This document shows, piece after piece, positions 36,193-54,377 of a stretch of 64,000 nucleotides of DNA (positions are counted from its first letter, which is position 1; every line of letters starts with the position of its first letter). The notes beneath the pieces are model-generated. The model ran no database searches, had not been told where the DNA came from, and saw nothing but the letters and a program-made list of their open reading frames with translations. A program made the position numbers and the translations under genes. This DNA is from Halobacteriovoraceae bacterium (GTDB lineage Bacteria; Bdellovibrionota; Bacteriovoracia; Bacteriovoracales; Bacteriovoracaceae). The stretch spans positions 62,001-126,000 of the forward strand of contig PASN01000014.1 in assembly GCA_002711995.1 (NCBI GenBank). Reading direction: 5' to 3'.

Positions 36193-37218
36193 TTAAGACT
36201 TTAATTGACCACAGGCCGCTAAGATATCATCGCCTTTGGTCTTTCTAACCATAACTCTCGCATCCTCTTCAACCAGCCACTGTTTGAATTCTTCTACACG
36301 CTCAGGCGCTGGGCGTTTAAATTCCGAACCAGGGAATGGGTTAAAGGGAATAATATTAATCATATGGGTTCTTGTATTAAGAACGCGTGCCAAGTCTTTA
36401 GCATCCTCTTTCGAGTCATTTAGGTCATCGATTAGGAGGTATTCGTACTCAACCGTTTGTCTCTCGTGTCTTTCAAGTCTGTCGATTTGAGCAAGGACGT
36501 CATTTAGTGGGTAGCGGTTGTTGATTGGTATAAGCCTGCTTCTCACCTCATCATTTGTTGAGTGAAGAGAAAGGGCAAGGTTTACACCACCCAGTTCCTC
36601 AAATCGTTTTAGGCCTGGAAGGTAGCCTGAAGTGGATACGGTGATACTTCTTTTGCCAAGTCCCAGTCCTTTTGGTTCTGTGAGAATTGAGATAGCTTCT
36701 TTTAGAGCTTCAAAGTTGTGAAGAGGCTCGCCCTGGCCCATAAAAACAACATTGGCGATATCTCTTTTTTCACCCATTTCCTTAAGGACTTCTTTGGCCT
36801 TTAGCACCTGGCCTATTATTTCGTGAGGCCTCAGGTTTCTCTTAAAGCCTTGAGTTGCTGTAAAGCAGAACTTGCAGTTCATGGCACAGCCAACTTGAGA
36901 TGAAACACAAAGAGTATACTTTTTATAAAATGGAAGAAGAACTGATTCAACACTTTCTCCATCCTCAAGGCCTAAAAGAAGCTTTACTGTTCCATCCGTT
37001 GAGTTTTGTCTCCTGACAATTGTTGGGAGCTCATGAGCGTAGTTCTCTTTAAAATGGTCTCTAGCTTTCTTAGAGAGTTGTGAATACTGCTCAAAGCTTT
37101 TATGCCTGCTTCTATAGATAAGATTTAGCACAAGGCCTGCGGTGTCTGGGGCGTTTCCTAGAGACTGTAGATCTTGTTCAACCTGATTAAGAGTAAGTGT
37201 GTATGCTTTAGGCTGCAT
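36193..37218 (-). CDS. rlmN: RlmN, 23S rRNA/tRNA adenine-C2 methyltransferase
   Basis: 341 residues. Radical-SAM cluster motif VGCAMNCKFC (Cys111, Cys115, Cys118), family block GQGEPLHNFEAL, and the C-terminal methyl-accepting Cys337 in AACGQLK. RlmN methylates A2503 of 23S rRNA and A37 of some tRNAs, affecting translational fidelity. The ATG shares one base with the add stop codon (TAATG), indicating translational coupling. Confidence 0.96.
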   Translation of the reverse strand: MQPKAYTLTLNQVEQDLQSLGNAPDTAGLVLNLIYRSRHKSFEQYSQLSKKARDHFKENYAHELPTIVRRQNSTDGTVKLLLGLEDGESVESVLLPFYKKYTLCVSSQVGCAMNCKFCFTATQGFKRNLRPHEIIGQVLKAKEVLKEMGEKRDIANVVFMGQGEPLHNFEALKEAISILTEPKGLGLGKRSITVSTSGYLPGLKRFEELGGVNLALSLHSTNDEVRSRLIPINNRYPLNDVLAQIDRLERHERQTVEYEYLLIDDLNDSKEDAKDLARVLNTRTHMINIIPFNPFPGSEFKRPAPERVEEFKQWLVEEDARVMVRKTKGDDILAACGQLKS

Positions 37219-38441
37219 TAAATAACTCCATGCTTTTTAGCGACCTTGTCAAAGTAAAGCATTGCGTTTTTAGCGTATTGTCGTTTCTCAACATAGCTTC
37301 CTGGAAAGAAGCTTTTCTTAAAACCATAGGCCACTATATCTTTAAGCCTCTTTAGTGGAATATCAAAGTTGTCCACTGCAAGTCTGTACTCATTGGTAAC
37401 TGTCGTGTTTGACACAAGTCTGTTGTCGGTGCAGATACTAACTGCCATTCTGTTATCCAACATATCTTTAAACTTGTGCTCTTTAAGAGACTTGATCTCT
37501 GGATTGGTTTGCATGTTGCTTGTAAGACAGACCTCAATCACTGTTCTTCTGTCCGCAATATAAGACGCTAAGTTTTTAATGTATGTGTTTTTGTCCTTGA
37601 TGCTTGGATCAAGAATTCTCTCTGGCATGAATAGGGAATAGCCATGGCCTATTCTGTCTGCCTGGCACTCTGTGATTGCTTGGAAAATACTTTCTGCGCC
37701 ATATGCCTCTCCTGCGTGAACAGTTTTATGCATGAAGTTTTTGTGAACATGCTCGTAAGCGGCCTTGAAGTTATTGGCCGGAAATCCTTCCTCTTGGCCT
37801 GCAAGGTCAATGCTCACAATTGGAAGCCCTTTTGTGTCTCTAAGCTCAACCACAGCTTTTGAAAGCTCTAGGGCCGCAAGAGATATCACTTCTGAAGACT
37901 TCAAATATTTAAGAGAAGAAAAGAGGTTTGTGTAGTAAGGAGAAAAACCCTTTGGCCCAAACGCTCGCATTGCACAACAGATAATTCCATAGTGAAATGG
38001 AGGGAGCCCATCTTCTTTCACTGCTTTTGAGTTGTTATATTCCGACTGGGCCCTTTTAAGACCATTGTTTACTCGGGTGAGGATTTCTTCCATTTCGATT
38101 CCTTTTTCAGGATCCATTAGAAGTTGTGGAGCAAACCTTGGCTCAATATAGCTTACACCCTCGTTTATATTGTCCCATGCAAGTTCATATGCGGCCCGCT
38201 CAAGGTTCTCCATATCTCTTAAAACTTCGCAAGTGTACTGGAAGCCTCTTAGGTACTCACCAAGATTGGCGTACTTCTCTTTATATACTTGATCCTTCAA
38301 ACCCTCTGCTGTGCTGGCCGGTAGCTCAAGTTTGGAGTTCTTTGCCATCTCAATCATACTTTCCAGACGGATAGAACCATCAAGGTGGATATGAAGGTCG
38401 GTCTTGGGCATTTCTTTTAAAAATTCGTCGCTGTAGTTCAT
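37218..38441 (-). CDS. add: Adenosine deaminase
   Basis: 407 residues from the ATG at 38441; an in-frame TTG at 38453 is possible but has no better context. Zinc and catalytic motifs: TDLHIHLDGSIR, VHAGEAYGAES, DRIGHGYSL and SICTDNRLVSNTTVTNEY. Family enzymes convert adenosine to inosine in purine salvage. At 407 residues it is longer than the usual 330-350 owing to inserts around residues 115-165, which may change substrate choice. First gene of the add-rlmN-SDR operon. In a predator purine salvage from prey would be useful (inference). Confidence 0.9.
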   Translation of the reverse strand: MNYSDEFLKEMPKTDLHIHLDGSIRLESMIEMAKNSKLELPASTAEGLKDQVYKEKYANLGEYLRGFQYTCEVLRDMENLERAAYELAWDNINEGVSYIEPRFAPQLLMDPEKGIEMEEILTRVNNGLKRAQSEYNNSKAVKEDGLPPFHYGIICCAMRAFGPKGFSPYYTNLFSSLKYLKSSEVISLAALELSKAVVELRDTKGLPIVSIDLAGQEEGFPANNFKAAYEHVHKNFMHKTVHAGEAYGAESIFQAITECQADRIGHGYSLFMPERILDPSIKDKNTYIKNLASYIADRRTVIEVCLTSNMQTNPEIKSLKEHKFKDMLDNRMAVSICTDNRLVSNTTVTNEYRLAVDNFDIPLKRLKDIVAYGFKKSFFPGSYVEKRQYAKNAMLYFDKVAKKHGVI

Positions 38442-38527
38442 AAATTCTCGCAATTTAAATGGTTCCTATCCATATCAGGTTTTAAGTACAATTTGAACTA
38501 TTGCGTTGAGTAAGATACCTAAAATAC

Positions 38528-46413: not shown

Positions 46414-46440
46414 GGCCTCTTTTCCAAGAGGCCTTTTTTT
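46414..46440. terminator. Rho-independent terminator
   Basis: GGCCTCTT and AAGAGGCC (8 bp, loop TTCC) followed by seven or more T. It ends the plus-strand small-protein gene and touches the end of the convergent lysine operon. Confidence 0.93.
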
Positions 46441-47564
46441 TACCTATAGATATTTGTCATTATTTGAAAAAGCTCCATCCCTTGATGAACGTTGCTGGAT
46501 GGGCATCTGTTGATAACAATGCCGTCCGCCTTGGCAATAAGAGTGTGGGAGCAAGAAGCGATAGGATCCATAGGATCAATATCCTTCATTTGATAAAAGG
46601 TTGCTAGTTTATCACCCTTTTTGAAGTGATCGCCAGGCGCCACATGATAGTCAACCAGGCCTCCTCTAGGAGCATACATTGTGGTGTAGTCTTTAAGCTT
46701 TGAATAGTAAGGATTAGCTGCCTCTGGCTCCTCGTCCAAAACACCCTTAAATTTTAGATAGTTTAAAATACTCTCAACATCTTTTGAGCCTTCATCCATT
46801 CTAAAAGTTTCTTCCGAGCCAAACTCAAGCGTGAAGGACTCAACGTCAAGGTTCACTTTCCTGCCAAGCTCTTTGAACTTATTTCTCAGATGAATCCAAG
46901 GCATGAAGGACGCCTCATCCATTGCTCCGGCAAAGTCATTTGGGATGACCAGCACATGCCTAAAGAGCATATGCTTTGAGACATTCTCTTCGTATTCTGC
47001 GCTGTAAATGTATCTGGTTGCCGTCGGTCCTGTGTGAAGGTCTAAGATGCCATCAGCGCCGAGTGCCAACTCTTGAAGAATAAGATTGATCTTATTGTTG
47101 TCTTGAATTTTGTTTTCTTCTTTAAGGGTATTTGTGAACTCTTCAAAACTTTGTTTAAGCTCATTTTTAAAGCTTTCTTTGACTAGGCCCCATTCAGTCT
47201 CTAGGTTTCTTTTGCAGAATGCCTCCAGATCAAAGCCTGAGACTTTTACCACATCGACATAGTTTCTGTTCCAATTGTCCCCAGTGACCGGATTATAACG
47301 TCCATAAGTGTAGGTGCCGTGCTTGTTAAGTGTGGCATAAGGGTTGGCCATAGGTATGAGAGTTATCGAGCCTTTAATCTTCTTGTGTTTCAAGGCCTCC
47401 ATCAGTTTTAGTATGACAGCGTTTCCTTGAATCTCAGCGCCGTGAACACTTGCTTGAATGTGAATATGTGGGCCATCTCCATTTGAAAGAGTAAAGGTCT
47501 TAATTTTTAAAACTTCACCTGTGGAAAGTTCTTTTACTGGTAAATCTTTTATTGTCCAACTCAT
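46440..47564 (-). CDS. M14-type desuccinylase/deacylase (AstE/aspartoacylase-like)
   Basis: 374 residues from the ATG at 47564, which shares one base with the lysA stop (TAATG). Zinc motifs of the succinylglutamate desuccinylase/aspartoacylase family: SVHGAEIQGN (His and Glu ligands), LDLHTGPT (third ligand) and the catalytic Glu in FTLEFGSEE. Such enzymes remove acyl groups from N-acyl amino acids. As the last gene of lysC-dapB-dapA-dapD-lysA, in a pathway that needs a desuccinylase after DapD but has no dapE here, it may act on N-succinyl-diaminopimelate. That role is inference. AstE in arginine catabolism is the alternative, but no other ast genes are seen. Confidence 0.88.
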   Translation of the reverse strand: MSWTIKDLPVKELSTGEVLKIKTFTLSNGDGPHIHIQASVHGAEIQGNAVILKLMEALKHKKIKGSITLIPMANPYATLNKHGTYTYGRYNPVTGDNWNRNYVDVVKVSGFDLEAFCKRNLETEWGLVKESFKNELKQSFEEFTNTLKEENKIQDNNKINLILQELALGADGILDLHTGPTATRYIYSAEYEENVSKHMLFRHVLVIPNDFAGAMDEASFMPWIHLRNKFKELGRKVNLDVESFTLEFGSEETFRMDEGSKDVESILNYLKFKGVLDEEPEAANPYYSKLKDYTTMYAPRGGLVDYHVAPGDHFKKGDKLATFYQMKDIDPMDPIASCSHTLIAKADGIVINRCPSSNVHQGMELFQIMTNIYR

Positions 47565-48766
47565 TAAATCATCCAATCGTAAGAGGTTTTAGGAGGCCGC
47601 GGAACCATGAGGTCATTGTTGTAAACCAATGCCTCTCCTGGAAGCTTGTGGCATAGAAAATATGGCATGGACTCTGTAAAACCATATGCTCCGGCCATTG
47701 TGAAAATAAGCCAATCGCCAATTTTTAAATCTTCCGGCAAGTCAAAGTCCCCCAAGTGATCCAATGCCGTGCATAGTGGGCCGTGAACTTGAAAGTTAAC
47801 TTTTTTTACATTGGAAGGGGATAGTGCCTTGCATGGAAACGCTTGGCCGGTAAGGGCCACTCTTGCGCAGTGGTTGATTCCGCCTTCGGTGACAAGAAGT
47901 TTCTTTCCTCTCACTTCTTTAACATCTACGATTTTAGTAAGGTAGTTGCCGCACTCGGCGGTGGTGAAGCGTCCAAGCTCCATCCAAATTGTTTTTAAAT
48001 TGTACTTTTTCTTAAGGTTAACCAAGATTTCATGAATCTCTTTGAAATCAATCTTCGTCTGGCCTTCTTTGTAAGGAACTCCAAGGCCTCCGCCAAGGTC
48101 CATTATTTCAGCACTCACGTTTAAGTCGGCAGCAAGGGAGAGAATGTTCTCAACACACTTCTCCCAAATCGATTCAAGCTTTTTGGGATCCATGATATTT
48201 CCCCATTGGAAAATATGAAATCCTTTGAAATTAATGTTTTTGAACTGCTGGAGGTCATGTTGTTTCCAGTCCTCTGGGCCAAGACCAAATGGTGTGATTG
48301 CGTCTCCACCTAAAACACTCTTTCCTTCGTTCCAATCGAGTTGGACTCTTATAAGAGCATCCACCTTTTTTCCAAGCTTCTGTGCCGCCTCGTCAAGCCA
48401 AACAACCTGGTTGTAAGACTCCACCACAATTGTTTTCACTTCATTCTTTATGAGGTGCTCAAGGTAGTCTCTAGACTTTCCAGGCCCTGTCGCGATGACA
48501 TGTTCGCCTTTGATGCCTGAATTTAAAACCTGGTGAAGCTCGCCGGAACTCGCAACATCTATACCAAATCCAAGGTTTCTCAAAACTTTTAGCACAGCAG
48601 ACATGGGATTTGCCTTGCAAGCGTACCAAAGCTTAATGTCCGGGTCTAAGATTTCGGCCATAGCGCTTAAATGAGATCTTAAAAGGTCGAGGTCGTAGAA
48701 GTAAAAGGATGCATCGAAACGATCAATGACCGTCTCGATATGTTTTTTAGTTTCAGCTTTCACCAT
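47564..48766 (-). CDS. lysA: Diaminopimelate decarboxylase-like PLP enzyme
   Basis: 400 residues. Fold-type III PLP decarboxylase: LWYACKANPMSAVL with the PLP lysine, GFGIDVASSGEL, GFHIFQWG, MDLGGGLGVPY and the C-terminal GAYGFTESMPYF. LysA decarboxylates meso-diaminopimelate to L-lysine; the context with dapD, dapA, dapB and lysC supports this. The HIFQWG segment differs from typical LysA (HIGSQ), so specificity for another diamino acid (carboxynorspermidine or similar) is possible. AAGGAACC precedes the ATG. Confidence 0.85.
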   Translation of the reverse strand: MVKAETKKHIETVIDRFDASFYFYDLDLLRSHLSAMAEILDPDIKLWYACKANPMSAVLKVLRNLGFGIDVASSGELHQVLNSGIKGEHVIATGPGKSRDYLEHLIKNEVKTIVVESYNQVVWLDEAAQKLGKKVDALIRVQLDWNEGKSVLGGDAITPFGLGPEDWKQHDLQQFKNINFKGFHIFQWGNIMDPKKLESIWEKCVENILSLAADLNVSAEIMDLGGGLGVPYKEGQTKIDFKEIHEILVNLKKKYNLKTIWMELGRFTTAECGNYLTKIVDVKEVRGKKLLVTEGGINHCARVALTGQAFPCKALSPSNVKKVNFQVHGPLCTALDHLGDFDLPEDLKIGDWLIFTMAGAYGFTESMPYFLCHKLPGEALVYNNDLMVPRPPKTSYDWMI

Positions 48767-48784: not shown

Positions 48785-49540
48785 TTAACGTAAAAAATCT
48801 TCCAGCTCTAGAGACGCTTGGGTCTTCTCGTCTTTGTACTTAATGATGATCGCACAGTTTAAAGCAAGACCTTGTTCGGCCGCACATGCGAGTTTTTTGT
48901 TAATAGGCCTTGAGCCTGGAACAACAACCGCGTTTTCTGGAATAATGCAATCAGTGATCATCTTTTCATTTACACAATCATATATTGGAGTGCCTTTTGA
49001 TAGGGCGACGTTTGGAGCAATTACAGCACCTTTAGAAACCTGAACTCCCTCCACAATAACAGCTCCCGCTCCAATGAAAGCGTTGTCTTCGATAACCACT
49101 GGAGCAAGTCCAATCGGCTCAAGAACGCCGCCAATTTGAACTCCTGCTGACAAGTGAACGTTTTTGCCAATTTGAGCGCAAGATCCAACAAGAGCGTGAG
49201 AATCCACCATTGTGCCTTCATCAACAAAGGCCCCAACGTTTACATATGCTGGCGGCATAAGGATCACACCCTTTGACACATACGCGCCTCTTCTAATTGA
49301 AGTACCACCGGGAACCATTCTGATCCCATCTTCAGGTTTAAAAGCTCTTGGAGCTAAATTGTGCTTGTCCACAAACCCATGAAAGTGTTCTTCAGAAAAC
49401 TCTTTGAGCTCTCCGGCCTTGAATGCTTCAAGAATCATTTTTTTTACATCAGTGTTTGCAACCCACTTGCCGTCAATCTTATTCGCTGCGCGAACCTCTC
49501 CAGATTCAAGTAGGTCTAGTGCTTCTTTCCAGTCTTTCAT
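48785..49540 (-). CDS. dapD: DapD, tetrahydrodipicolinate N-succinyltransferase
   Basis: 251 residues. N-terminus with LESGEVRAANKIDGKWV as in DapD, then hexapeptide repeats forming a left-handed beta-helix (GGTSIRRGAYVSKGVILMP, VGAFVDEGTMVDSHALVGSC, NVHLSAGVQIGGVLEPIG). It succinylates tetrahydrodipicolinate, committing the pathway to the succinylase branch, which then needs an aminotransferase (DapC) and a desuccinylase. Fourth gene of the lysine operon, 12 nt after dapA; AAAGGAAA ribosome site. Confidence 0.95.
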   Translation of the reverse strand: MKDWKEALDLLESGEVRAANKIDGKWVANTDVKKMILEAFKAGELKEFSEEHFHGFVDKHNLAPRAFKPEDGIRMVPGGTSIRRGAYVSKGVILMPPAYVNVGAFVDEGTMVDSHALVGSCAQIGKNVHLSAGVQIGGVLEPIGLAPVVIEDNAFIGAGAVIVEGVQVSKGAVIAPNVALSKGTPIYDCVNEKMITDCIIPENAVVVPGSRPINKKLACAAEQGLALNCAIIIKYKDEKTQASLELEDFLR

Positions 49541-49552
49541 TATATTTCCTTT

Positions 49553-50446
49553 TTAGTTGTTATACTTTTTAAACCATTCATTAACGTTATTGTTTGCCGC
49601 AAGAATGTCGTCATTGCGATCAAGGTCCAAACTTGTTAGGGGAGGCATCAAGGCGTCAGAGCCAATCCTATGCTCAAGCTTAAGCAGTCTTTTGGCCGGA
49701 ATTGGGTTTGAAGCTATGAAAAGAGAATTGGCCGCAGCTTCCCACATCTTATTTTCCTCAAGAGACTTGTCCAGTGCCTTTTGCACATATAGGGCCGTTT
49801 GCTTAGGCCATGTGTTGCTGGCAACACTTACAAGGCCGCAAGAGCCTGCGTCTGCGAATTCTGGGAAAAGCCCATCGTCACCACAATAAACCTGAGCATT
49901 TCCGCTGGCCTTAAGGTAGGCCTTGAATTTATTTACATCGCCACTGGCCTCTTTAAGCGCCCAGAAGTTTTTGTGATCTTTTAAACGCTCCAATGCTGAG
50001 ACTTCCAATTCTTTGCCTGTTCTGCCTGGCACATTGTAGAGCATTACAGGCCTTGAAACTTTATCCATTAGAGATTTAAACCAGTGATACTGGCCTTGCG
50101 CTCCTGGTTTTGCATAAATTGGCACCACCATTAAGTAAGCGTCAATGTTTTGGGTTTCAAGCCAAGACACCCAGCTTTTTTGATCTTCGAGGTTGTGGCC
50201 TCCAACTCCGGCCATGACAGGCACGCTAGGGGAGAGCTTCGTCACATACTCAATAATCTCTTTTCTCGTTTCAAGACCTAAGTTTAGAGCTTCTCCTGTG
50301 CTTCCTAATATAAGGAGACCATTGCCTGCTTCTTCTTGCTCTTTAACAAGAGATTTAAGAGAGTCCCAATCAACCGATAGATCTTTGTTGAAAGGTGTCA
50401 CCAACGCGGTCCACAGGTTAAAATCATTAAGGTTAAAATTACTCAT
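49553..50446 (-). CDS. dapA: DapA, 4-hydroxy-tetrahydrodipicolinate synthase
   Basis: 297 residues. TIM-barrel aldolase of the DHDPS family: LLILGSTGEALNL (substrate-binding GSTGE), Tyr137 in MLYNVPGRTG and Schiff-base Lys165 in FWALKEASGD. It condenses aspartate semialdehyde with pyruvate, the first step of the lysine branch. Third gene of the operon, 10 nt after dapB, with AAAGGAT ribosome site. Confidence 0.96.
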   Translation of the reverse strand: MSNFNLNDFNLWTALVTPFNKDLSVDWDSLKSLVKEQEEAGNGLLILGSTGEALNLGLETRKEIIEYVTKLSPSVPVMAGVGGHNLEDQKSWVSWLETQNIDAYLMVVPIYAKPGAQGQYHWFKSLMDKVSRPVMLYNVPGRTGKELEVSALERLKDHKNFWALKEASGDVNKFKAYLKASGNAQVYCGDDGLFPEFADAGSCGLVSVASNTWPKQTALYVQKALDKSLEENKMWEAAANSLFIASNPIPAKRLLKLEHRIGSDALMPPLTSLDLDRNDDILAANNNVNEWFKKYNN

Positions 50447-50456
50447 ATATATCCTT

Positions 50457-51122
50457 TTATAGTTTTAAATAGTTCTTTACCACTTCGTTAAAATCTAAAA
50501 GTCCCTTAGAAAGGTTGTGGTCCTCATGTAGAATTTTAGCGGCCCATACAGCGCCTCTAGCAAAGATTGTTCTGTCCTTGGCCTCGTGAACTAATTTAAT
50601 TTTTTCATCGGCGCAATCAAACTCCAGGTGGTGATATCCAACCACGTCGCCCTCTCTTTGCGCGGTTATCTCAGCGTCCTTTCCTAGCCATTCCTTCCAA
50701 GAGATGGCCGTACCGCTTGGTGCGTCTTTTTTATGAACGTGGTGAATGTCATGAATTGTGAATGTGCCGTCATCGAACAAGTCTGACAGCTTTGACATGG
50801 TCTTAATCATCTCTCTTACAACATTCATCCCAAGGGAGAAATTGTGGGCCTTGATCCATGAGGCATTGTTTTCTTTGAGTCTTTGTTCAATATTCTTAGG
50901 CCATTCCATTCCAGTTGAACCTGTGACCACTGGAAGGCCAGATTCAACTAAAAGATCAATGTGATCCAAAAAGGCCTCACCTGGAAGGAAGGAGACAACC
51001 ACATCACAATTTTTTAGTGAATCAAGAGTTGCGGGATTTCTAGTGTTGAAAAGCTCAACATCCCCATGGATGTCCGCAACCTTCATTCCAGTTTTCCCTG
51101 TCCCTAGTAATGCAATTTTCAT
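50457..51122 (-). CDS. dapB: DapB, 4-hydroxy-tetrahydrodipicolinate reductase
   Basis: 221 residues from the ATG at 51122 (MKIALLGTGKTGMKVAD). An open frame continues to 51230 but would run into lysC. Rossmann GTGKTG, VTGSTGM and the signature HHVHKKDAPSGTA with substrate-binding residues. It is shorter than the usual 240-270 residues because the N-terminal domain is compact, as in several non-enteric DapB proteins. Second gene of the operon, 7 nt after lysC; AGGAAG ribosome site. Confidence 0.94.
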   Translation of the reverse strand: MKIALLGTGKTGMKVADIHGDVELFNTRNPATLDSLKNCDVVVSFLPGEAFLDHIDLLVESGLPVVTGSTGMEWPKNIEQRLKENNASWIKAHNFSLGMNVVREMIKTMSKLSDLFDDGTFTIHDIHHVHKKDAPSGTAISWKEWLGKDAEITAQREGDVVGYHHLEFDCADEKIKLVHEAKDRTIFARGAVWAAKILHEDHNLSKGLLDFNEVVKNYLKL

Positions 51123-51129
51123 AGTCTTC

Positions 51130-52485
51130 CTATTTGCAATTCTCAATAAACTTTTCGTGAAGTCTTTGCACGGCCACATTGCAGTCTTCTTCGGCCACAA
51201 GAAGGTTAAAGTTGTGAGCGGATGCTCCAAGACACATCATGCGCACATTGATCTCTCCAAGAGCGTTAAACAAGTCTCTTGCAAGTCCGTGAGTTGAAAG
51301 AATCTTGTTTCCAATTAGTGAGATCAAGGCCTGACCTGTTTCAAAGCTTACTTCTCCAAATGCTTCCAAATCTTTAATTAGCGCCTTGTGCTCCATCATT
51401 GATCTATCGATTGAGACAGAAACACTAATCTCGGAAGTTGTTACACAGTCCACACTTATTTGGTGATTGGAAAACACATTGAAGATGTTTCCCATAAAAC
51501 CAATGGCGTTTAACATTTTTGGAGTTCTAATAGTTAAAAGAGCTTGATCGCTTCTTTTTGCAAGGGCCCTGATTAGAGGTTTGTCTTGAACCTCTTGTCG
51601 AATCCAAGTTCCTTTAGCGTCCCCCTCGTAAGAGCTTCCAACAAATACAGGTATGTTTTTTTGCATCGCTGGCACAAGAGTGGTTGGGTGAAGGATCTTG
51701 GCGCCGTACTGGGCCATCTCACTCGCTTCATCATAGCTGATTTCATGAATTGGAGTTGCGCCTTTGCAAATTCTTGGATCTGTTGAAGCTATGCCTGCGA
51801 CATCTGTCCATATCTCTAAAACATTTGCGTTTACCGCTTGGGCAAAAAGGGCCGCAGAGTAGTCAGAGCCGCCTCTGCCAAGAGTTGTCGTGTGTCCGGC
51901 CTCAGTTTTTCCTATAAAGCCTTGGGATATGTAAATTCTCTCTGGTGAAAAATCAAAAACCTCTTTTGCCTTTCTAGCTATGACATCAATTTGAGGACGA
52001 GCTTTTGTGTGCTTGTCGTCCGTAATGATCACATCTCTTGCATCAAGAAGAACAACGTCCTTCTTTGGAAATAGCTTTTTATAAGAAAGTGAAAATAGTA
52101 GAGAAGACATTCTTTCACCTAAGCTTAAAACTTGATCGCGGGCCTTGTCAGAACATTCTTTTAATAAAAATATTCCTCTTGATAAAGTCTCAAGCTCTTT
52201 TAAAAGGGCCTTTAGTTTGTCTGTTGGATCGGAATCTTTTGTGAAGTTTGCAAGAATGTCAAAATGCTTTTCTCTAAGATTGAATAAGAGCTTTTCACAT
52301 GTGCCCCAATTTCCTTCTTGAGCGGTGTTTATCAACTCCAAAAGTTTATCCGTTGTTCCATAGGTTGCAGACACCAATACGATGGATGAATTCTGTCTGT
52401 GCGCTATTTTAGCACTCCTATCCATTGCCGCTTCATCGGCCATGGAGCTGCCTCCAAATTTGGAAACAATAATCTGATTAGCCAT
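51130..52485 (-). CDS. lysC: Aspartate kinase (monofunctional)
   Basis: 451 residues. Kinase N-terminus IIVSKFGGSSMADEAAM, FIGKTEAGHTTTLGRGGSDYSA (nucleotide and aspartate site), WTDVAGI, and two C-terminal ACT domains (LLTIRTPKMLNAIG, ALISLIGNKILST) that usually confer lysine and/or threonine feedback. First gene of lysC-dapB-dapA-dapD-lysA-AstE-like. CGGAG precedes the ATG. A short hairpin in the leader may attenuate; I find no lysine-riboswitch core. Confidence 0.95.
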   Translation of the reverse strand: MANQIIVSKFGGSSMADEAAMDRSAKIAHRQNSSIVLVSATYGTTDKLLELINTAQEGNWGTCEKLLFNLREKHFDILANFTKDSDPTDKLKALLKELETLSRGIFLLKECSDKARDQVLSLGERMSSLLFSLSYKKLFPKKDVVLLDARDVIITDDKHTKARPQIDVIARKAKEVFDFSPERIYISQGFIGKTEAGHTTTLGRGGSDYSAALFAQAVNANVLEIWTDVAGIASTDPRICKGATPIHEISYDEASEMAQYGAKILHPTTLVPAMQKNIPVFVGSSYEGDAKGTWIRQEVQDKPLIRALAKRSDQALLTIRTPKMLNAIGFMGNIFNVFSNHQISVDCVTTSEISVSVSIDRSMMEHKALIKDLEAFGEVSFETGQALISLIGNKILSTHGLARDLFNALGEINVRMMCLGASAHNFNLLVAEEDCNVAVQRLHEKFIENCK

Positions 52486-52509
52486 TCTTGCTCCGATATA
52501 TAAAGAAAG

Positions 52510-52523
52510 AGGGCGACTGCCCT
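52510..52523 (-). promoter_or_regulatory. Hairpin in the lysC leader
   Basis: AGGGC and GCCCT pair around AGTC on the minus strand, followed by CTTTCTTTATAT. It could be an attenuator-type terminator ahead of lysC, but the stem is only 5 bp and no leader peptide or anti-terminator is evident. Confidence 0.3.
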
Positions 52524-52676
52524 GCTAAATTGTTGATTATATAAGGATAATAAAGAACGGTCGCTAATTCAAGGTGATGACAATATTTTACCCTGGGGTT
52601 TGAGTACCTTACTGTTTTTGTCTGAATGGGGTAGATTTACGTGACCGAAATAAAGTCTAGAACTATAATAAGTTTT

Positions 52677-53192
52677 ATGAGGAATAAAAGTCAGATTTTA
52701 AAAGCGACAAATCACAGATGGTTTAGCGCCTTCTTTTTGGGTGGCGCAGCCTTGGCCTTCTTTATGATTGAACCAGAAAAGTCACTATTCCTAAAGTATG
52801 GAGTTGTATGTCTTTCCTTACTTATTGGAATTTGGTTTCTTCTTAGAAAGTCTGAAGATAAAATTTGGATCTCCAATGGAATCTTTCACTTCTCTCAGGT
52901 CAGAGGCAAAGAGGCAAAGGCCGATAACGTGCCCATTAAAGATATCAGATCATTTGAAATTGTTTTCTCTGGACACCACGGAGGGAACTCCATTGTTAGA
53001 CATAATTGTTATGTAGTCACCAAAGACGGCAAGAGGATAAAGCTTCCTGATGGAATTAAGTACGCGGCATATAATCCAGGCCAAGTTGGGCTGTCGTTTC
53101 TAGTAAGGCCACTTCAAGTTATTAATCGGAATATATTTGTTGATGTGAATGATGAAGAAGTCAAAGGCAAGGCCAAACCTGTCTTTAAGTAA
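52677..53192 (+). CDS. Membrane protein with two helices, unknown function
   Basis: 171 residues from the ATG at 52677. An in-frame GTG at 52641 exists, but it lies inside GTGACC, a -35-like element spaced 17 nt from TATAAT, which ends 7 nt before this ATG; the short start with a leaderless mRNA is preferred. Two adjacent membrane helices (FSAFFLGGAALAFFMI and YGVVCLSLLIGIWFLL) precede a cytosolic beta-rich domain (RSFEIVFSGHHGG, YVVTKDGKRIKLP) reminiscent of bacterial PH-like domains. Function unknown; asd follows 78 nt downstream. Confidence 0.75.
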   Translation: MRNKSQILKATNHRWFSAFFLGGAALAFFMIEPEKSLFLKYGVVCLSLLIGIWFLLRKSEDKIWISNGIFHFSQVRGKEAKADNVPIKDIRSFEIVFSGHHGGNSIVRHNCYVVTKDGKRIKLPDGIKYAAYNPGQVGLSFLVRPLQVINRNIFVDVNDEEVKGKAKPVFK

Positions 53193-53270
53193 TTAAGATC
53201 TCTAAAACCCTTTATATTTGTCACCATCTATCCGACAATGGCATATACATAATTTATTTTTGGAGAGTAT

Positions 53271-54377
53271 ATGAAGAAAGTTGGCATTGTTGGTTGGAGA
53301 GGAATGGTAGGTTCGGTCCTTATGGAGCGAATGGAGCAAGAGAAAGATCTTGAGCTTATTGACGCCACACTGTTTTCCACCTCTCTTAAAGGCGAAAAAA
53401 ACAATTGGCATCCAAAATGCTCCGACACTGTAATGGACTCAAACTCCATAGAAGAATTAAAAGAAATGGATGTCATCATCACTTGCCAAGGCGGAGACTA
53501 TACCAAAGAAATTCATCCCAAGCTTCGAGCAACAGGATGGAGTGGACATTGGATTGACGCTGCAAGCGCCATGAGAATGGACGAAAATGCAACAATCGTT
53601 TTGGATCCAGTGAATCAAAAACAAATAGTCCAAGCTATAGACAGTGGTAAAAAAGATTTTGTGGGCGGCAACTGCACAGTTTCCCTGATGCTTTTGGCCC
53701 TTGGGGGGCTTTTTGAAGAGGGGATAGTTGAGTGGGTCTCTGGACACACCTACCAAGCTGCAAGCGGCGCTGGAGCAAGAAACATGATTGAGCTCTTAGA
53801 ACAAAGCCACTTTCTTACTTCACAATATGTGGACGCAAAAGCTCCGGGCAAGGCAGCTCTTGAATATGAAAAGCTTGTAACCGAGGCAGCAAAATCAAAA
53901 GATATGCCTGTGGATAATTTCGGTCAGCCTTTGGCGCTATCTTTACTTCCTTGGATTGATGTAAAGATGGAAAACGGACAATCTAGAGAGGAGTGGAAGG
54001 CCCAAGTTGAAGCTAATAAAATCCTTGGAAGCAAAGAAATCATTCCTATAGATGGAACTTGTGTTCGTGTTGCTAGTCTAAGATGCCACTCTCAGGCATT
54101 CACCATCAAACTCAAAAAAGACGTTGGAATACAAACGATAGAAAATCTTATAGGCCAACACAATGATTGGGTTGAACTTGTTCCCAACAATAAATAAGAC
54201 ACTGTAGAAAAGCTTACTCCTAAGAATGTGACTGGCACATTGAAAATTCCTGTGGGAAGAATTAGAAAAATGAATCTTGGGGACAACTTTGTAAACGCCT
54301 TCACCGTTGGAGATCAGCTCCTTTGGGGAGCTGCAGAGCCACTTAGAAGAACTTTAAGATTAATACTAAAAGATTAA
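53271..54377 (+). pseudogene. asd: Aspartate-semialdehyde dehydrogenase, in-frame stop at codon 309
   Basis: An asd gene with all landmarks: [10 protein letters not shown] (NADP loop), catalytic Cys135 in [18 protein letters not shown] and [14 protein letters not shown]. At codon 309 (54195-54197) there is a TAA. The same frame then continues for 59 codons to TAA at 54375-54377 and encodes the conserved C-terminus ([34 protein letters not shown]). Total 368 codons matches E. coli Asd (367), with the TAA aligning to a Glu codon. The terminated product would lack a conserved segment of the enzyme. Asd supplies the semialdehyde for DapA and for threonine/methionine. Nonsense mutation, sequencing error or readthrough are all possible. 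Confidence 0.85.

Follow-up and report, generated by a model that had tools for sequence, protein, structure and literature searches.

A divergent LysA-like decarboxylase paired with an M14 amidase in lysine operons: a possible late-desuccinylation end to lysine synthesis

The lysine operon of a Halobacteriovoraceae bacterium ends in two genes, one for a LysA-like decarboxylase and one for an M14 amidase, that together look like an undescribed late shortcut to lysine rather than a mere stand-in for a missing enzyme. The pair is our main finding: judging from sequence comparisons, the decarboxylase appears to belong to a new LysA subfamily that carries a diagnostic substitution and is linked to the M14 amidase. 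The operon lies on the minus strand of the window, by which we mean the whole stretch of 64,000 nucleotides that was analyzed (assembly GCA_002711995.1, contig PASN01000014.1, positions 62,001 to 126,000). Its order is lysC-dapB-dapA-dapD-[lysA]-M14, with M14 as the last gene. The features, in window coordinates, are:

46440..47564, minus strand: M14 amidase of the AstE/AspA/CphZ group, 374 aa (P0001), from the open reading frame and a profile match; the predicted desuccinylase of the lysine branch
47562..47566, minus strand: TAATG, in which the stop of the LysA-like gene overlaps the start of the M14 gene, from the junction sequence
47564..48766, minus strand: LysA-like PLP decarboxylase, 400 aa, with Thr333 and with Arg266 and Arg302 kept (profile and alignment)
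48785..49540, minus strand: DapD, tetrahydrodipicolinate N-succinyltransferase of a short, divergent type (NF008808, 302 bits, above the cut-off of 204)
49553..50446, minus strand: DapA (TIGR00674, 253 bits, above cut-off)
50457..51230, minus strand: DapB, reading frame as listed (PF05173 and PF01113 above cut-off)
51130..52485, minus strand: LysC, aspartate kinase of the lysine-sensitive type, first gene of the operon (NF006570, 515 bits, above cut-off)
52486..53270, no strand assigned: region upstream of lysC, in which the RNA search detected no lysine riboswitch

The first-pass annotation of this DNA had described lysC, dapB, dapA, dapD and lysA followed by an M14 gene coupled to lysA by TAATG. 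Both the order and the coupling hold, with the junction reading ATT-TAATG and the stop of the LysA-like gene sharing one base with the M14 ATG; the naming of "lysA" does not hold, as described below. The DapD falls below the cut-off of TIGR00965 (211.5 bits against 375) and reaches 97 bits with the acetyl-type model TIGR03532, so that the succinyltransferase models score best. DapB scores 111 bits with TIGR00036, slightly below the cut-off of 122, and the gene probably starts further downstream, past its overlap with lysC. By inspection of the sequence, an aspartate-semialdehyde dehydrogenase-like gene (window 53271-54197) is transcribed away from lysC, and a homologue of it (cluster c3) lies near most dap operons of the order. 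In the nearest relatives (L178-L182, L114), a PLP aminotransferase-like gene directly follows M14 and is itself followed by an adenosine-deaminase-like gene; the window lacks that aminotransferase-like gene and has an adenosine-deaminase-like counterpart at 37218-38453 (again by sequence inspection).

The M14 reading frame is found on the minus strand only, the plus strand of 46440-47564 being crowded with stops. The motifs that had led the first-pass annotation to an AstE/aspartoacylase-type enzyme are all present (HGAE at residues 41-44, DLHTG at 175-179 and LEFG at 246-249), and the assignment is borne out by Pfam AstE_AspA_cat (PF24827; 1.8e-20, 73.8 bits against a cut-off of 25). All matching models are M14 models, and none is of the M20/DapE type. 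In a column alignment of 94 M14 rows (which omits L212, truncated by the edge of its contig, and L234, which has its LysA-like gene elsewhere), H41, E44, N99, R100, H177 and E247 vary little or not at all; H41, E44, H177 and E247 are the predicted zinc-binding and catalytic residues, and N99-R100 the putative NR substrate motif. The AlphaFold model (pLDDT 93.0) has as its top PDB structure matches 3fmc/3lwu, which are Shewanella structural-genomics proteins (Z 45.3). The closest M14 match with a known function is CphZ (8eip, Z 38.3), whose catalytic Glu251 aligns with E247, and DoeB (6twm) scores Z 27.8; true AstE, from E. coli (1yw6), reaches only Z 17.1 at 14% identity. A search for ast genes, which the first-pass annotation had suggested, found no match to the AstE_AspA_hybrid model PF04952 anywhere in the genome (the E. 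coli control was positive), and an enzyme of the AST pathway was therefore rejected as the identity of the M14 protein. The protein very likely serves the succinylase branch as an amidase. By sequence inspection, the genome has a second AstE-like M14 gene (350 aa; its contig C6, locus L157, 8741-11128), whose neighbours are a RimK-like ATP-grasp gene and a gene for a small protease-like protein; a weak M14 match like that of L157 is present in many genomes of the order.

Searching the whole genome (3.70 Mb, 96.4% complete) extended to all of it what had been noted for the window, namely that DapE is missing: the DapE model TIGR01246 has no match anywhere, and PF01546 finds three proteins only: judged by sequence, one resembles a PepD-type M20C peptidase and the other two resemble secreted M28 peptidases. 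DapF (243 bits) is encoded, as is a DapL/DapC-like aminotransferase (L146) that scores below the cut-offs of the models.

The gene taken for lysA in the operon scores 201.9 bits with the canonical LysA model TIGR01048 (cut-off 297.9), and a canonical LysA (411.8 bits) is encoded on another contig of the same genome; on profile scores, the operon gene is a divergent LysA paralogue, not canonical LysA. Among PDB sequences it matches BtrK best (4.1e-41), and LysA 2p3e less closely (5.6e-37). When it is aligned to Thermotoga LysA (2yxx), Thr333 takes the place of Glu315, and Arg266 and Arg302 correspond to Arg249 and Arg285. The 85 distinct LysA-like sequences (from 91 rows, as some scan loci duplicate genomes of the order sample) all have Thr at position 333, and the 23 canonical LysAs, 21 of which come from the same order, all have Glu there. 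The two arginines are retained in all 85, and the PLP lysine, K51, in 84 (the other row is gapped). In Thermotoga LysA, Glu315 reads the distal amino group of diaminopimelate (DAP) and two Arg bind the distal carboxylate; the E315T variant drops in DAP activity from 675 to 26 mU/mg and rises from 15 to 482 with 2-aminopimelate, which has no distal amine (PMC8277567). The natural Thr333 is the same swap, and thus points to a substrate that has a distal carboxylate and lacks a free distal amine. N-succinyl-DAP fits on both counts, and is the expected product of the adjacent DapD with an aminotransferase. The genome also has a third LysA homologue (253 bits, below cut-off; its contig C7, locus L156, 8328-11346) beside a 602-aa protein resembling PLP enzymes, possibly another specialized decarboxylase pair.

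In the standard succinylase branch, DapA, DapB, DapD and an aminotransferase make N-succinyl-LL-diaminopimelate. We propose that the LysA-like enzyme would decarboxylate N-succinyl-diaminopimelate, removing the free alpha-carboxylate at the non-acylated amino-acid end to give N2-succinyl-L-lysine, and that the M14 zinc amidase would then cut this product into L-lysine and succinate; from sequence and gene context, we see the case for this proposal as evenly poised. Decarboxylation would thus come before desuccinylation, DapE, DapF and ordinary LysA would be bypassed, and lysine would be made without a drain on the meso-DAP pool needed for the cell wall. N-succinyl-DAP may be a second substrate of the M14 enzyme; this would account for the lineages that have M14 and no LysA-like gene. 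Both substrates, the acyl group (succinyl, not acetyl) and attack at the L-centre are the parts of the route that we infer. The wider proposal, which we put forward tentatively and with somewhat less than even confidence, is of an undescribed lysine pathway that would occur as a lysine-repressed dapA-dapD-LysA-like-M14 cassette beside a full DAP pathway (Pseudoalteromonas, Colwellia) and within the main lysine operon (Bacteriovoracia), and that would uncouple lysine from cell-wall DAP.

Several properties of the two proteins bear on this route. Canonical LysA attacks the D-centre, and it counts against the route that the proposed substrate offers an L-centre instead; BtrK and FigC, going by the names of their substrates, act at the L-centre. 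Structure comparison, which was dropped as a means of deciding between LysA and BtrK because the scores are tied (LysA 2qgh Z 41.8, BtrK 7ru7 Z 41.2), also counts against it. In its favor are the Glu-to-Thr change with both Arg kept, which matches N-succinyl-DAP, and the BtrK match as best PDB sequence match, given that FigC-type relatives use acylated substrates and that BtrK and SbnH are grouped with FigC, an N-citrylornithine decarboxylase (PMC7857480). In addition, CphZ takes beta-Asp-Arg, and N2-succinyl-lysine would, on chemical grounds, resemble beta-Asp-Lys minus its amino group.

The order sample comprises 57 genomes, with a strong M14 match in 26 (G037, where two contigs each hold part of the gene, is counted as one), a LysA-like gene in 25 and DapD above cut-off in 46. 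Among the 46 DapD-bearing genomes, the LysA-like gene is present in 24 of 26 with M14 versus 1 of 20 without M14. Conservation of a lysA-M14 pair, a question raised by the first-pass annotation, is therefore found in 24 of the 26, with the qualifications that the partner is LysA-like and that G055 and G036 have M14 without it; the one genome with the LysA-like gene only is G027, which is counted against the route. That genome (locus L099) lacks M14 genome-wide, and has a riboswitch and a canonical LysA. Because of kinship, the Fisher p of 9.4e-10 overstates the association of M14 with LysA-like, which comprises 2 supported independent pairs and 7 in all; a kinship-corrected test was abandoned, as 2 supported pairs are too few events, and this small number of independent events is likewise counted against the route. 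(The DapD tree holds 45 of the 46 DapD-bearing genomes, G001 being left out.) Canonical LysA is absent from 5 of the 25 LysA-like genomes and in pieces in one more, so that the LysA-like enzyme may be the sole route there, which counts in favor. A DapF match is absent in G041 and G055, both rated 99-100% complete.

A wider scan, of public genomes, yielded 228 M14 relatives, of which the best 80 were analyzed. Among these best 80, the gene directly upstream of M14 is LysA-like in 66, dapD in 4, lysC in 4, dapA in 2 and another gene in 3, with one contig edge, so that 76 loci, from several phyla, have a lysine gene directly upstream; the 66 LysA-like cases count for the route, and the gap is at most 30 nt in 63 of these adjacent pairs. 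Gene orders include dapA-dapD-LysA-like-M14 in Pseudoalteromonas, dapD-LysA-like-M14 in Colwellia, lysC-M14 in Shewanella and Paraferrimonas, and dapA-M14 in Thalassotalea and Thalassomonas. Among the ORFs of 130 scanned loci (the best 80 of 228 plus 50 from the order), no DapE was found, and DapF was found in no M14 operon (one M14-less locus has it). That the cassettes lack both, and that gene order follows reaction order, counts for the route. Some operons carry an aminotransferase instead of DapE or DapF (L178-L182, L278); in L278, from Acidobacteriota, lysC-dapB-dapA-dapD-LysA-like is followed by an ArgD-like aminotransferase (by sequence inspection), and M14 is on another contig. A contig labelled as a Gammaproteobacteria MAG (L205) has dapB-dapD-LysA-like-M14, with its M14 falling among Bacteriovoracia rows on a long branch of unsure placement; it is possibly a misbinned contig or a transfer.

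Twenty M14-bearing genomes were searched whole, 14 of them gamma-proteobacteria. All 14 have DapE (534-575 bits), LysA (479-556) and DapD (467-502) above cut-offs. In 8 of them, this set is joined by a second DapD (180-198 bits) and by the LysA-like gene (165-206). M14 thus fills no DapE gap in the 14 gamma genomes, and the coexistence with a canonical DapE, DapD and LysA is counted for the route.

Set against this are the M14 copies that stand alone: 12 of 94 rows have no LysA-like gene nearby, and lie instead beside dapD (Bacteriovoracia), dapA (Thalassotalea/Thalassomonas) or lysC (Shewanella/Paraferrimonas). On an M14 tree of 69 of 96 rows (the 27 omitted rows are gamma-proteobacterial, most of them from Pseudoalteromonas, and G037 was not among the 96), linkage to LysA-like changes at least 4 times on supported branches, and most likely 6 times. 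We looked in the conserved columns of the 94 rows for a residue switch between linked and unlinked copies and found none; only 2 columns differ in at least 2 of the unlinked groups. The likeness suggests one shared substrate and, together with the unlinked copies themselves, counts against the route.

A lysine riboswitch (RF00168) lies upstream of 19 of the 22 M14 operons searched, the window's own being among the 22: 8 of 8 gamma loci, 6 of 7 further M14 loci and 5 of 7 others. This is counted for the route. The three loci at which it is missing are L115, L138 and the window's own (L142), where nothing was found at E <= 1 across 52300-54300; the lack of a detected riboswitch in the window operon counts against. 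RF00168 also occurs at 4 of 8 M14-less dapD operons, and so marks lysine control of the operon, not M14 itself. Among the operons that a survey lists under lysine riboswitches are dapA-dapD-lysA-hypothetical1-hypothetical2 of P. haloplanktis and lysC-dapB-dapA-dapD-lysA of B. marinus; in these operon entries, M14 is not named and lysA appears under its ordinary name (PMC5584792).

The idea of the first-pass annotation was that M14 is a non-orthologous DapE, converting N-succinyl-LL-DAP to LL-DAP, and that a canonical dapE elsewhere in the genome would speak against it. For this genome the idea is partly supported, given that DapE is absent and M14 is linked to the lysine genes. It gains from the 57 genomes of the order, in which no DapE (TIGR01246) exceeds the cut-off, yet 46 have DapD above theirs; from M14 genes that directly follow dapD without a LysA-like gene (G055, G036, L185, L188, L189 and L204, where L189 is the G055 locus and L204 the G036 locus); from Shewanella, in which lysC-M14 is under a lysine riboswitch without LysA-like; and from the constancy of the M14 recognition columns across gene settings. 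As a general role, simple DapE replacement was rejected: a true DapE accompanies the same M14 family in 14 of 14 gamma genomes, and M14 tracks LysA-like, not the absence of M20. M20 DapE-like matches occur in 10 of 26 M14 genomes and 9 of 20 M14-less ones (46 DapD-bearing genomes), with no trade-off. The 20 DapD-bearing genomes without M14 indicate that DapD there does not require it, and in the 11 that also lack an M20 match (G015, G018, G023, G031, G032, G035, G042, G046, G047, G053 and G054), either DapD has a different use or there must be a further desuccinylase. (PF24827 was dropped as a finder of such an alternative, since 57 of 57 genomes match it.) DapE replacement also gives no reason why the partner decarboxylase has a fixed Glu-to-Thr change. 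A version that differs by lineage, with replacement in Bacteriovoracia and, in gamma-proteobacteria, a lysine-repressed second DapE among extra copies (DapA2, DapD2, M14, LysA2), belongs to the same explanation, which we regard overall as unlikely, if still to be reckoned with.

Alternatively, the M14 protein could be an N-acyl-amino-acid amidase of broad specificity, with N-succinyl-DAP and N-succinyl-lysine, or the N-acetyl forms, as its substrates, so that the two steps could take place in either order. Its occurrence both with and without LysA-like, conserved columns that lack a subfamily switch, and the presence in the family of deacetylases such as DoeB are consistent with this, but a defined role is the more natural reading of a fixed partner and of operons regulated by lysine, and the DapD scores given above are those of a succinyl type; we find it improbable. 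Hardly credible, in our view, is an unrelated peptidase (e.g., of the isoaspartyl-dipeptide or cyanophycin-dipeptide type) whose only tie to the lysine genes is the shared operon. The closest characterized structure is indeed a beta-Asp-Arg hydrolase, CphZ, but such a role is difficult to reconcile with LysA-like, dapD, lysC or dapA directly upstream in 76 of the best 80 loci and with riboswitch control of the M14 operons.

Compared with the succinylase route (DapD-DapC-DapE-DapF-LysA), the proposed late desuccinylation has DapA, DapB and DapD feeding the same intermediate and, in relatives, the same regulation by lysine, but the M14 operons have LysA-like and M14 instead of DapE and LysA, and the order of the last steps would be reversed, with no DapF. 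M20 DapE would share with M14 the removal of N-succinyl in the lysine branch, whereas its fold and metal site are unrelated, and the two coexist in gamma-proteobacteria. CphZ, the cyanophycin dipeptide hydrolase of Acinetobacter baylyi (8ein/8eip), shares the whole-length fold, the zinc-site motifs and the catalytic Glu, but has 21% identity to the M14 protein and a beta-aspartyl dipeptide as substrate, and we know of no role for it in a lysine operon. AstE (succinylglutamate desuccinylase) belongs to the same M14 superfamily and reaction class, and is far more distant than CphZ. On the decarboxylase side, FigC/FslC, SbnH and BtrK are related to LysA and act as decarboxylases on amino acids that are acylated, as proposed for LysA-like, or bound to a carrier, although in siderophore and antibiotic pathways, and BtrK has CT instead of CE in its specificity loop, like LysA-like. 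The N-citrylornithine route of FigC circumvents putrescine and is a close precedent in logic (PMC7857480). Within lysine synthesis, a search of open-licence PMC papers brought up no title, abstract or passage on an N-succinyl-DAP decarboxylase or an N-succinyl-lysine desuccinylase.

The analysis exposes a gap in that many Bacteriovoracia have DapD without a recognizable DapE and without M14. In the textbook pathway, the final two steps of lysine synthesis are regarded as invariable, with DAP formed first and meso-DAP then serving as the substrate of LysA. If the proposed route is correct, decarboxylation with the succinyl group still attached would be a new end to the pathway. It would give a function to the structural-genomics structures 3FMC and 3LWU, correct widespread "lysA" and "succinylglutamate desuccinylase" annotations, and explain why many marine gamma-proteobacteria have a second dapD and "lysA".
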